64,000 nt of DNA from contig CM073324.1 in the NCBI GenBank assembly GCA_037043015.1, forward strand, positions 14,405,013 through 14,469,012, read 5' to 3'. A program made the position numbers and the translations under genes. This document shows, piece by piece, positions 7,840 to 53,354 of this stretch; position 1 is the stretch's first letter, and the number at the start of each line of letters is the position of its first letter. Below the pieces are notes generated by a model. It saw only the letters and a program-made list of their open reading frames with translations. It had not been told where the DNA came from and searched no databases. The DNA comes from Bryum argenteum (Eukaryota; Streptophyta; Bryopsida; Bryales; Bryaceae).

Positions 7840-8171
7840 CTCCCAAACGCGCATGGGGTCTGAAACGGGCAATCCAAAAATGAATCACGACATCTTCTGG
7901 ACTTGGGCATCATGAATGAACCAATCAATGATGAGCTTGCAACCTCCTACAAGGTTATGAACAACCCCAACCTACCTACCACAATCCTCTCAAAGTACAA
8001 AATCATTTATACAAATTGTGATTTGAATTGTAAAATTTCTCTTTTCGTATGCATCATAAGAAGGTGTCTGACCAGTTTGACATCAAAGTGAAAAGTTGAG
8101 TACAACAAGAGCTACAAAGCAAATTTTGTTGGGAAAAAAAAGCCCCTCGGGCTTGCTTGGGCGTTTAAGGG
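7840..8171. mobile_element. Older family-1 MITE, about 332 bp
   Basis: TTAA precedes a mutated left end (CTCCCAAACGCGC) and the right end is GGGCGTTTAAGGG. The interior aligns with the 362-bp copies but has small deletions, and the right TTAA has decayed to TTTG. Confidence 0.8.
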
Positions 8172-12105: not shown

Positions 12106-14337
12106 CACTACTGCATATTTAAGGTTTTGCGACAATGGGAGCTATATTGACTATGACTAAATAGCGTCATATATGTCCATAGCCACTAAGAGTAAATGAG
12201 TAAATTCCAAACATTTCTCAAGCTAAGCAACGTCTTGAAACTTGCTCCAACAACGTTGTTTTCAGCGAATTGAGCAGAATTTACCATTTTCATTTGCAAT
12301 GTCCCTTGCTTAATGGATTTGACTTTAGAATGTTGTTGGGGTAAGTACAAAGACATTGCTTTGTTAGAACAACAATTCTATAAACAAAGTTGCAAACTCC
12401 TCTCCCTTATATTAGTGAAACCTAGAGCAATCTTAAACAAATAAATTTGTATGTTCAAGAAAATCCATTAATACGTGTCAACTTTGAAATTTTGCACAAG
12501 TTACTGTGACCATATTGACATGATTAATCTAAATGTAGGAACTATGTTTTTTGTAACCAAGCTAATAATCCACGCTACCTTCTAAACTTTAAATGAAAAA
12601 TTACTCCTTTATAATATATAGAGTAGGATAGGAGTATATATATGAACGTATTGACCTTGTGTAAATTCAAGCAAATCATTTGGCCTCTCAATTTAAAATA
12701 CTATAATGAGCTATTTCAACATATCCAATAATGCACTATAAGTTCCTTCTACCTCTCAATTTGACTAAATGATATGAAATATTTGGAAATCTTTAAGAAT
12801 TTTTACGGTTTATTTGCAACTTTTGAATGGTTTAATGCAATATGTAGACGTTTTGTTGCCACATAAGCATACTTATTTGCAACATGTGTAGTACTTGTGC
12901 ACAAGTGTGTGTTGATTGCTTGAAACATTTGCACGTTCTTGTCCAGGAGGTTCTTGAAGTTGCTTTGCCACATCGCCATCATAAGCACTCAAAACGCTCC
13001 AACAAACCTGAGTACCCTACCTCACTTAAGACGGTTGCAATTAGACTTTGACAAATAGTGCAAAGATGAGAGAGATGAAGTTTGTGGGCTCCTCATATCT
13101 TCCCCCTAATCTCAAGTAGTCACAATCAAAAAGAGTGTGCATGGAACAACTGACTCAGTACTTGGCATATTCTTTAGTTTGTTGCAGAAGAAAATTTGTT
13201 GTGGTACCTAAACCATGGGATCCCCATGTAGTGCAAAACGAATAGTGTAAAAGTGGGCATTATTCTCCTCAACCTAACTATGATAACAAGATCAACAACA
13301 TAAACTTGAAAATGTGAAACGTGGGAAATGTGGGGAACGTGGGAAACATGGGAAACGTGGGGAACGTGGGAAACATGGGAAACGTGGGGAACGCGGGGAA
13401 TGTGGGGAACGTGGGAAACGTGGGGAACGTGGGAAATGTGGGGAACGTGGGAAACGTGGGAAACATGGAGAACGTGGGAAACATGGGAAATGTGGGGAAC
13501 GTGGGAAATGTGGGGAACGTGGGAAACGTGGGAAATGTGGGGAACGTGGGAAACGTGGGAAACATGGGAAACATGGAGAACGTGGGGAACGTGGGAAAAA
13601 TGTGAAACGTGGGGAACGTGGGAAAGATGTGAAACGTAGGGAACGTGGGAAAGATGTGAAACGTGGGGAACGTGGGAAACGTGGGAAAGAGGCTTTGGAC
13701 GGTAGTTTGACATCAAAAAGTAGCTAGCTTCGATTGCTATGACCACATGCGAGGGTACAATGGAAATTTTGGAAGAAAGAACATAGGCATTTGTGGCACT
13801 AGGTGCTTTACGATTTAGGTTTTAGAGGTATAAAAGGCATTTGATGAGATCCATCACTTTCTAAACTTCATCTTGAATCTTGAAAGAAAATTAAAGGTTT
13901 AAGAACTCATTGGCAAATTCAAGGACTTAATTTGTAGGAAAAACAAGAAAAATATATTACCAAAAAAACAAAAAGAACAAAAAAACAACAAACATGCATG
14001 TATTTACTATTTTTGCACAAAGTCACGTGGATGCAAGTATTATTCATATATACTTGCAAGTTTGTCTAAACATAGGTAAAGATTTAAATTAACCTATAAT
14101 ATGTAATAATTTATTATTTATAGTAATTTACAACAGATTAACTTATAATGGCTAGTATATATTTTCATAAATGGTATGTTTTTATTATGACCATATCAAC
14201 CATGGTGACTTAGTATTTTCCGAATGTATAACATGACTTTCAATCATTTATTCTCAATCGTTCCAGACATATATAACGTTATTAAGTCATAGTTAATATG
14301 AATCCCATAATCATAAAACCTTAAATCTGTAGTAGTG
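12106..14337. mobile_element. Non-autonomous CACTA-type element, 2.2 kb
   Basis: Inverted repeats of about 75 bp, roughly 80% alike, start CACTACTGCA on the left and CACTACTACA on the right (reverse complement). They share TTTAAGGTTTT, ACTATGACT and ATATATGTC. The 3-bp flank AAT is present on both sides (12103-12105, 14338-14340), as expected for CACTA/EnSpm. No transposase frame. A 9-bp minisatellite occupies 13313-13690. Partial copies lie at 22.1 and 29.2 kb. Confidence 0.82.
13313..13690. repeat. 9-bp minisatellite, units like GTGGGAAAC and GTGGGGAAC
   Basis: About 42 units of 9 bp with variants (AACGTGGGG, AACATGGGA, AATGTGGGG). Because the unit is a multiple of three, all six frames stay open and give artificial peptides (GNV, GERGKR, HVSHVP). 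It is not a gene. Confidence 0.95.
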
Positions 14338-16111: not shown

Positions 16112-16464
16112 TTCAATGTAGCCCAAGGAAGCCCAAGGGGCTTTTTTCCAACAGAATCTGCTCAACTTTCACTTATATTTATGCTTTGATGTCAAATTGG
16201 TCTCAACTTTCACTTATATTTATGCTTTGATGTCAAATTGGTCACCTTCTTATGATGCATTCAAAAAGTGAAATTTTACGATTCAAATCACAATCTGTAC
16301 GAGTGATTTTGTGTTGGGATTGAACATGACCTTGTAGGAGGTTGGAAGCTCACCATTGATTGGTTCATTCATGATGCCCAAGTTCAAAAAGTGCACTATT
16401 CATGATGCCCAAGTCCAAAAGGTGTTGTGATCTGCCCGTTTCAGACCCCATGGGCGTATAAGGG
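16112..16464. mobile_element. Family-1 MITE, reverse orientation, with internal 41-bp duplication
   Basis: Reverse-complement copy ending GGGCGTATAAGGG before TTAA (16465-16468), just 3' of the F-box gene's stop. The left end is degenerate. A 41-bp segment is tandemly duplicated at 16161-16243, and about 60 bp of the consensus are missing. Confidence 0.8.
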
Positions 16465-39420: not shown

Positions 39421-39427
39421 CACTTAA

Positions 39428-40531
39428 CCCTTAAACGCCCATGGGGTCTAAAACGGGCAGCCCAAAATTGGATCACAACATCTTTTGGACTTGGGCATCA
39501 TGAATAGTGCACTTTTTGAACTTGGGCACCATGAATGAACCAATCAATGATGAGCGTGCAACCTCCTACAAGGTTATGTACAACCCCAACCTACCTACCA
39601 CAATCCTTTCAAACCATAAAATCATACATACAAACTGTGATTTGAATTGTAAAATTTCACTTTTTGAATGCATCATAAGACGGTGGCCAGTTTGACATCA
39701 AAATATAAGTGAAAAGTTGATTACAGTGAGAGCTACACAGAAGATTCTGTTGGAATCAAGCCCCTCGGGCTTGCTTGGGCGTTTAACCCTGGAACGTCGG
39801 AGCGGCCATTTTATGTCCGATAAACAGAACATTTTCACTGTAACCTATTATTGCGGGATGAATTTCATTCATGATTTTTGTAATTGGATTTATGAATGAT
39901 AATAGCATATCATGGAATTCATTTGAGGTCATTTAAGGTATTTCCTAAGATCACATGTGGTATGAAAGTTGAAAGAATGGTTAAAAACAAATCACCACAA
40001 AGTGCATTTCTGCAGCTTTTTCCTATTTTTATTAAGTCTCAAATTTAGGCAACTAAATGATCTCTTTTGAGTTCAAGCTCAATTCATAAAATGAATCTTA
40101 CCAAGTCTTGTTTCTACTCCAAGTTAGAATTTCAAGAAATTCCTAATATCTAGTGATTTACTGACACCTTAAGTTTACATGCCTATAGGGTCTCTTTCTC
40201 AATTTTCAAATATAGCATGACACGAAACCATGGATTACACCATGCTATTCTTCACTACAATGTCCCCTTATTCTAAAAATTTCAGATTTTTTGAAAGTGA
40301 TTTGTATTTGATATGAATTATTTTTGGTTTTTCTTTGAAAATTCACTTGAATTTTAAATCTTCCCAAAAAAATCTGAAATTTTTACAGCATATGAAAAGC
40401 ATGTGATCACATCTACGAAAAATAAAATAAAATATTTCCCTTTCAGGTAAAGTGGCAAAATGGAGGATTCAGAGTAAGACATATCAAAGTTCAGGCCACG
40501 GTTATGGGCTCCGACGTTCTAGGGTTAAGGG
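39428..40531. mobile_element. 362-bp TTAA MITE (family 1), interrupted by a second element
   Basis: Begins CCCTTAAACGCCC after TTAA (39424-39427) and ends GGG before TTAA (40532-40535). Removing the nested element 39787-40524 and one TTAA copy leaves exactly 362 bp, equal to the copies at 48378 and 52993. Internal landmarks are GGTCTAAAACGGGC and CCCCTCGGGCTTGCTTGG. Non-coding. TTAA duplication and CCC/GGG ends fit the piggyBac superfamily. Confidence 0.88.
39787..40524. mobile_element. 738-bp TTAA element (family 2) nested in family 1
   Basis: The terminal inverted repeats are CCCTRGAACGTCGGAGC (17 bp, one mismatch), flanked by TTAA at 39783-39786 and 40525-40528. The uninterrupted family-1 copies have a single TTAA at this point, which proves the 4-bp target duplication. 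AT-rich interior with no coding frame of note. Confidence 0.88.
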
Positions 40532-41117
40532 TTAAACAAACAGTTCACCATCAAAGATGAAGTCTTCAATCACCTTGACGACCTACCCCATAGCAGTTCA
40601 CACTTCAATAGTACAGTATATTCTACATTGGGTATGCAGGAAGTACTCGATAACGACATGTACCTCTCTAAGATGAAATCTTCATCCGAAACTGAATCTT
40701 TACAGAACAAATGTTCAAGATGAAAGTTTCACCTTCACAACTCATTGTTTACAAATCAATGTTAGGGTGGTATTCAAAACTACCCACCGTAGAATCTCCT
40801 CACTCCGACAACCTCAACAGTCTGTACCGACTTGCTTCATTCTGATGTCCACTTGCTACAAGAAGGTTGTGGTTTTCTTGCCAATTGCATGCTAAGGTGC
40901 TCTAAACTGACGCATGACAATAATGACTAGACTACACCGTTGAAGAAACTCCCTACAAGTCCAACCTCAAAAATTGATAACAGATTCCAGAAGAGTTCGA
41001 AAATCATCATAATGTCCAAACTTCACATAATGAAATTTGCGCCATTATTGACCAGGTTACCGCTTGAAGGGGAAGCGATAGCAAAGCAGGAGGAGAGTCA
41101 AAAGCGTGGGAGCTAGC

Positions 41118-48099: not shown

Positions 48100-48840
48100 G
48101 GCTAGGCGTGTGCTTTAGGTCAAACCACCGGGTTGCGTCAAAAGCTCGCAGGCCCTCGGAACCCCACCCCAGGCTGGAAGGCAAGACAGAGGAAAAGGCC
48201 GCTCACCAATCACATTTTCTAACAAGCTGATTATACTAAAAATTATTTTCTGTCAATAAAATATCTACCACGTGTCACTCTTTCATTGGTTAATGGGCAC
48301 ACCATAACTCAAAGTTATCCCGTGTCATAACTTAGGGTGCCTATTAACCAATTATTGATGTCTCTTTCATTGGTTAACCCTTAAACGCCCTTGGGGTCTA
48401 AAACGGGCAGCCCAAAATTGGATCACAGCATCTTTTGGACTTGGGCATCATGAATAGTGCACTTTTTGAACTTGGGCATCATGAATGGACCAATCAATGA
48501 TGAGCTTGCAACCTCCTACAAGGTTATGTACAACCCCAACCTACCTACCACTATCCTTTCAAAGCACAAAATCACTCGTACAAATTGTGATTTGAATTGT
48601 AAAATTTCACTTTTTGAAAGCATCTTAAGGAGGTGTCCAGTTCGACATCAAAATATAAGTGAAAAGTTGAGCACAATGAGAGCTACAGGGAAGATTTTGT
48701 TGAAATCAAGCCCCTCGGGCTTGCTTGGACGTTTAAGGGTTAATGGGCACGGGATAACTTTAAGTTATGGTGTGCTGAAATGTAGGAGACATCAACCCTC
48801 TTGACTAGGTTACAAGGATACTACTTGGGTTGGGATTCCT
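48100..48840. repeat. Dispersed repeat carrying a family-1 MITE
   Basis: Related to 3.9-4.2 kb. An internal segment with CATTGGTTAATGGGCAC is itself duplicated or inverted before the MITE, so the exact history of this copy is more complex than one insertion. Confidence 0.7.
48378..48739. mobile_element. 362-bp TTAA MITE, family 1
   Basis: CCCTTAAACGCCC at the left and GGACGTTTAAGGG at the right, with TTAA on both sides (48374-48377, 48740-48743). It is inserted into an older dispersed repeat whose related copy lies at 3.9-4.2 kb. Confidence 0.88.
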
Positions 48841-52992: not shown

Positions 52993-53354
52993 CCCTTAAA
53001 CGCCCATGGGGTCTAAAACGGGCAGCCCAAAATTGGATCACAACATCTTTTGGACTTGGGCATCATAAATAGTGCACTTTTCAAACTTGGGCACCATGAA
53101 TGCACCAATCAATGATGAGCTTGCAACCTCCTACAAGGTTTTGTACAATCTCAACCTCGCTACCACAATCCTTTCAAAGCACAAAATCACTCATACAAAT
53201 TGTGGTTTGAATTGTAAAATTTCACTTTTTGAATGCATCACAAGAAGGTGACCAGTTTGACATCAAAATATAAGTGAAAAGTTGAGTATAGTGAGAGCTA
53301 CAAAGTAGATTCTGTTGGAAGGTGACCCCTCGGGTCACCTTGGGCGTTTAAGGG
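52993..53354. mobile_element. 362-bp family-1 MITE with TTAG target duplication
   Basis: Same length and ends as the 48.4 kb copy, but both flanks read TTAG (52989-52992 and 53355-53358). The matching non-canonical flanks show that the four bases are duplicated target and not part of the element. Confidence 0.87.

Follow-up and report, generated by a model that had tools for sequence, protein, structure and literature searches.

The nested insertion and its target site

The window (a stretch of 64,000 nucleotides on contig C4 of the assembly) contains one small TTAA-flanked element interrupted by another, which raises the questions of which transposon superfamily these elements belong to, what moved them, and in which order they inserted. 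The features of the nested locus and the related copies in the window are as follows (coordinates, strand, and description).

39424..39427, no strand: TTAA, target duplication to the left of the family-1 element
39428..39786, plus: family-1 MITE, left 359 bp, ending in the TTAA used by family 2
39428-39440, plus: family-1 left inverted repeat CCCTTAAACGCCC
39783..39786, no strand: TTAA, left copy of the family-2 target duplication, inside the family-1 right inverted repeat
39787..40524, plus: family-2 MITE, 738 bp
39787..39803, plus: family-2 left inverted repeat CCCTGGAACGTCGGAGC
40508..40524, minus: family-2 right inverted repeat, CCCTAGAACGTCGGAGC on the minus strand
40525..40528, no strand: TTAA, right copy of the family-2 target duplication
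40529..40531, plus: GGG, final 3 bp of the interrupted family-1 MITE
40532..40535, no strand: TTAA, target duplication to the right of the family-1 element
48378..48739, plus: intact family-1 copy, 362 bp, TTAA flanks
52993..53354, plus: intact family-1 copy, 362 bp, TTAG on both sides
7845..8171, plus: diverged family-1 copy, 85-86% identical over two BLAST pieces, with an exact right end and no TTAA after it
16123..16464, minus: family-1 relative, 75% identical

The initial annotation had proposed that a 738-bp element splits a family-1 MITE exactly at TTAA, and that removing it together with one TTAA restores the 362 bp of two other copies in the window. Both statements were borne out base by base. 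The family-2 element (39787-40524) lies between two TTAA within the 362-bp family-1 element (39428-40531), and the empty-site comparison in the window returned the family-1 length of 362 bp after excision, with a gap-free alignment to the copies at 48378-48739 and 52993-53354. The family-2 element had not entered the family-1 interior but a TTAA that forms part of the right inverted repeat of family 1 itself (GGGCGTTTAAGGG), and this 4-bp TTAA was duplicated at the nested insertion. The family-2 ends, CCCTGGAACGTCGGAGC and CCCTAGAACGTCGGAGC, are identical at 16 of 17 bp, and the element between them is non-coding, its longest stop-free frame spanning 54 codons. According to BLAST, the window contains five family-1 copies or relatives, including the interrupted one, and one family-2 copy.

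The family-1 copy at 52993-53354, which lies between TTAG flanks, is possibly a true off-target insertion. An imperfect inverted repeat at 40274-40385 in the family-2 MITE has 46-nt arms that are 74% complementary; this type of repeat recurs in most of the family-2 copies fetched and is absent from L009/L010. The window also contains a short-repeat stretch with several open frames on both strands (13174-13821). No Rfam match at gathering scores was obtained for the window, and a tRNA scan found none.

Genome-wide ends and target preference

A search of the genome (258.8 Mb, 25 contigs) supported the expectation that both types of end are flanked by TTAA well beyond this locus. The exact 17-bp family-2 end (CCCTRGAACGTCGGAGC) occurred 443 times, compared to 0 for the reversed control, and was directly preceded by TTAA in 421 cases (95%). 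The exact 13-bp family-1 end (CCCTTAAACGCCC) occurred 3694 times, compared to 2 for the reversed control, with TTAA before 3298 (89%) and TTAG before 29. These tallies cover TTAA for family 2 and TTAA and TTAG for family 1, the remaining ends numbering 22 and 367, respectively; TTAA accounts for 0.57% of the tetramers in the window. The family-1 figures refer to ends and not to copies, because the same end occurs on longer elements and perhaps on several MITE families. All 18 distinct family-2 copies, fetched by a pattern requiring TTAA at one end, had TTAA on both sides, differing flanks, and the same ends. The inverted repeats of both families (13 and 17 bp) fall within the piggyBac rule of 12-19 bp with the motif CCYT, a type of repeat described as a piggyBac hallmark (PMC10175614 and PMC2872659, excerpts).

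Locus L006 contained a 1131-bp family-2 copy with additional internal sequence (1505-2635), located in a TTAA beside another CCCTTAAGG-type end. As these piggyBac ends carry TTAA, new copies may often land next to or within them.

piggyBac transposases of the genome

A profile search of the genome with PF13843, the piggyBac transposase domain, scored at least 116 places among 775 first-look candidates (best E 7.4e-82), spread over contigs C1 to C11. As counted from the list, 93 of the 116 scored domains had no stop within the match, and no PF13843 domain was found in 14 control genomes. The 30 best loci were fetched and formed 6 groups at 50% distance in average-linkage clustering. The columns corresponding to D268, D346, and D447 were occupied by Asp in 30, 29, and 30 of these 30 loci. 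Furthermore, six scored domains spread over five contigs share a score of 258.4 bits (two on C2 and one each on C1, C4, C8, and C9), and the nearest pair among the 30 loci was 98% alike; such equal scores and the 98% pair are a sign of probable recent copying.

Four elements (E1 to E4), whose ends are described below, carry transposases that scored far above the PF13843 cut-off of 22.4, namely 278.3 bits for E1, 281.6 bits for E2 (as L031), 271 bits for E3 (as L040), and 275.1 bits for E4. The domain starts at residue 426 in E1 and 501 in E4 of the frame read stop-to-stop or from the locus edge. The E1 transposase matched 6x67 (E 2e-29) and piggyBat 9c0f (E 7.7e-24), and that of E4 matched the same two structures (E 3.5e-21 and 9.7e-22, respectively). 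We take 6x67 and 6x68 to be the piggyBac structures of Trichoplusia ni, and D268, D346, and D447 of 6x67 align with Asp in both E1 and E4. A C-terminal cysteine-rich domain is a further feature of piggyBac. E1 and E3 show the Cys pattern, E2 shows the first part of it, and in E4 the pattern lies in another frame; the Cys-rich stretch of E1 aligned with piggyBat, and a separate Pfam match for this part was obtained in neither E1 nor E4. In viral contigs, 14 stretches fit a pattern from an 11-sequence transposase alignment, and none of them was confirmed as a relative.

Longer partners of family 1

Three loci, when extended to both ends, yielded the elements E1 (5191 bp), E2 (4942 bp), and E3 (5404 bp), all flanked by TTAA at both ends. 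The family-1 repeat is present at both ends of E1 and E2, and the 5' end of E3 deviates from it at two positions. The only long open frame among the three is that of E1, with 897 codons, and the transposase parts of E2 and E3 are each split into two frames. Beyond the 13-bp repeat, the family-1 left end pairs with the 3' ends of E1 and E2 (score 33, against at most 30 in 300 shuffles), and the family-1 right end, which contains a small palindrome, pairs with their 5' ends (score 40, against at most 31 in 300 shuffles). The crossed pairings scored 15-17, not above shuffles. For E3, the 5' match scored 39 against a best shuffle of 22, and the 3' match of 25 equalled the best of 300 shuffles. Four further loci were compared by their 3' end only, and L035 (33) and L054 (27) were above all shuffles, whereas L046 and L055 (15 each) were not; the 3' end of L040 is the same end as that of E3. 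Family 1 reads as a probable shortened relative in the opposite orientation, and none of E1-E3 is its direct parent.

Longer partner of family 2

E4, an 8384-bp element on contig C3 with TTAA on both sides, was located by a pattern that leaves out the inner bases of the MITE and was among the matches listed (100 of 208). Its right end is an exact family-2 end located 3.1 kb from the transposase domain. The first 38 bp of E4, comprising the left repeat and 21 more bases, are 97% identical to family 2, and the last 30 bp, at the right repeat, are 90% identical. Both elements also have the same left-G/right-A difference between their repeats. Elsewhere, E4 and family 2 showed weak matches (E 0.16 or worse). 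The estimated chance of a scored transposase near one of the two non-MITE family-2 ends was 0.009 among the matches listed, but what links E4 to family 2 is the match at both of its ends and not the nearness of the transposase.

The PF13843 domain of E4 is 42% identical to that of E1, and the two MITE families thus point to two different piggyBac lineages. The frame of E4 appears broken near the C-terminus and has Ala at the position of 6x67 D450; for both reasons, E4 may be dead. No TTAA-flanked family-2 end with up to three mismatches was found in the 30 transposase loci and their 1.5-kb flanks.

Two other loci have an exact family-2 end and unusual inner bases. L068 proved to be an ordinary copy. 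L067 (C3:23003366) is not the MITE and lacks a family-2 body; its two family-2-like ends point the same way at a distance of 25 bp, and it is perhaps another user of these ends.

Age and order of insertion

The 17 normal-length family-2 copies differed by 1.5% on average in pairwise comparison (0 to 3.1%) and by 0.8% from their consensus; their variable sites comprised 57 singleton and 14 shared sites, and two copies at different sites had zero substitutions between them. These copies were drawn from L001-L030, L068, and the window, where most loci come in pairs for the left and right end of a single copy, L014/L015 is a duplicate of the L012/L013 site together with its flank, L022 is without a left end, and the 1131-bp L006 copy was excluded from the distances. 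As the first ones listed on C1 and C2, the 30 loci do not form a random sample. The picture of family 2 from these sequences is that of a young family with a recent burst. In BLAST comparisons, the other family-1 copies in the window were 93%, 89%, 85-86%, and 75% identical to the copy at 48378. The order that had been read from the nesting, family 1 first and family 2 later, fits both the nesting and these ages, with family 1 diverged and family 2 1.5% apart.

Host

The genes of the window include F-box/leucine-rich-repeat exons. The genome contained one LEAFY locus (a plant transcription factor), with one candidate and two exon matches on contig C5, and no LEAFY was found in the 14 control genomes. 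The match shared 100 of 105 aligned residues with 4bhk (238 bits) and scored 168 bits against 2vy1; the former is presumably the LEAFY structure from the moss Physcomitrium, and the latter presumably a structure from Arabidopsis. The earlier reading of the host as a land plant therefore stands, with a moss as the most likely host.

Proposed explanation and alternatives

We are highly confident that both families are non-autonomous piggyBac MITEs in a likely moss, moved by different piggyBac lineages of the same genome, with family 1 arriving first. The initial annotation had derived the piggyBac identity from the TTAA and the CCC/GGG ends and had suggested a search for longer copies with a transposase sharing these ends. 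The TTAA-flanked longer partners with PF13843 domains support that identity, and such copies were found for family 1 (E1-E3) and family 2 (E4), with the Asp triad aligned in E1 and E4. In the proposed mechanism, the transposase would bind the inverted repeats together with the bases immediately internal to them, and the element would be cut out and joined into a TTAA, which would then stand on both sides. The family-1 insertion would have come first, followed later by the family-2 insertion in the TTAA of the family-1 right inverted repeat, which probably ended the mobility of the interrupted family-1 copy. We infer the movement of the MITEs by these transposases from sequence comparison, and the cut-and-paste reaction is presumed here from the known biochemistry of piggyBac.

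Another TTAA-targeting superfamily, Kolobok, could have moved one or both families if the piggyBac-like ends were convergent, since Kolobok likewise makes TTAA duplications; one family-2 frame (plus strand, frame 1, stops as X) also gave no Pfam match. However, the TTAA-flanked longer elements with these ends have piggyBac transposase domains, the MITE ends match the piggyBac-bearing elements beyond the repeat, and the CCYT-type repeats of 12-19 bp are the piggyBac hallmark reported in the excerpts cited above (PMC10175614 and PMC2872659), so that Kolobok is very improbable. The 4-bp TTAA duplication at the nested insertion does not fit PIF/Harbinger, which produces a 3-bp TAA/TTA duplication (PMC10004981, excerpt).

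Insertion of family 2 at TTAA through breakage and repair or recombination, without a transposase, would have to account for 18 distinct copies with different flanks, TTAA on both sides, and identical ends, as well as for the 421 of 443 ends that follow TTAA although the search pattern contained no TTAA, and it is scarcely conceivable. Just as hard to credit is the idea that the piggyBac elements entered the assembly as contaminating animal or fungal DNA; in its favor, two papers describe piggyBac mainly from animals (PMC12732532 and PMC10140906, excerpts). The scored transposases occur on contigs C1 to C11, the 29 TTAG-flanked family-1 ends alone cover C1-C10, including the LEAFY-bearing C5, and an F-box/LRR gene lies among the five family-1 copies or relatives of the window.

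Comparison with known systems and significance

Similar to T. ni piggyBac, the elements described here have a TTAA target, short inverted repeats of the CCCT type, and aligned D268/D346/D447. On the other hand, T. ni piggyBac measures 2472 bp (PMC10140906, excerpt), whereas the present elements are 4.9-8.4 kb long and their host is most likely a moss. E1 and E4 also match piggyBat, a bat element (PMC11707139), across the domain. Coral CMITEs, which are piggyBac-linked MITEs with TTAA and CCYT repeats (PMC2872659, excerpt), are likewise small and, according to the same excerpt, also show nested insertion at TTAA between direct repeats. However, CMITEs are approximately 100 bp long and occur in an animal, whereas the MITEs here are 362 and 738 bp long and occur in a plant.

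For land plants, the open-access literature, as far as its excerpts go, treats piggyBac as marginal. A fern repeat table lists 122 kb of PiggyBac in 1230 pieces (PMC6890710, excerpt), a Stipa repeat table lists 75 bp (PMC8319324, excerpt), and piggyBac is a name in a list in a paper on angiosperm MITEs (PMC10004981, excerpt). Other excerpts name piggyBac among the plant class II superfamilies and as a tool (PMC10794571), describe it as occasional in plant genomes, naming red algae, and again as a tool (PMC12732532, from 2025), or include plants among its hosts without detail (PMC10140906). These table and list entries share the superfamily name and, in the excerpts, give no full element, whereas both ends and transposase domains are present here. 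The excerpts of the open-access literature contained no account of complete piggyBac elements or of a large piggyBac family in a moss, and in the excerpt of a moss genome paper the sole related word was piggybacking (PMC10619864).

The elements thus belong to a known superfamily, and what is unusual is their host and their number. Databases may contain piggyBac-domain proteins of mosses that were annotated automatically. We are evenly divided on whether the genome harbors a large, recent, and possibly still running endogenous piggyBac radiation in a moss, with at least six transposase groups among the 30 fetched loci, which would have different ends and MITEs of their own, several of these groups including near-identical copies whose domain is open throughout. 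Family 2 would then be a freshly mobile MITE driven by the E4 lineage. Seamless genome engineering makes wide use of piggyBac as a tool. A moss that carries more than 100 piggyBac transposase domains, together with matching ends in the thousands, would offer plant biology a native piggyBac system from which new pairs of transposase and ends could be drawn, and the coexistence of two piggyBac lineages in a single nucleus would allow a test of whether each recognises only its own ends.

The elements were unevenly distributed. Contig C1 (44.09 Mb, the longest among the contigs compared) was piggyBac-poor, with 72 of the 3694 family-1 ends (approximately 629 expected by length), 7 of the 443 family-2 ends (approximately 75 expected), and 5 of the 116 scored transposases (approximately 20 expected), and it is possibly a sex chromosome or another special chromosome.
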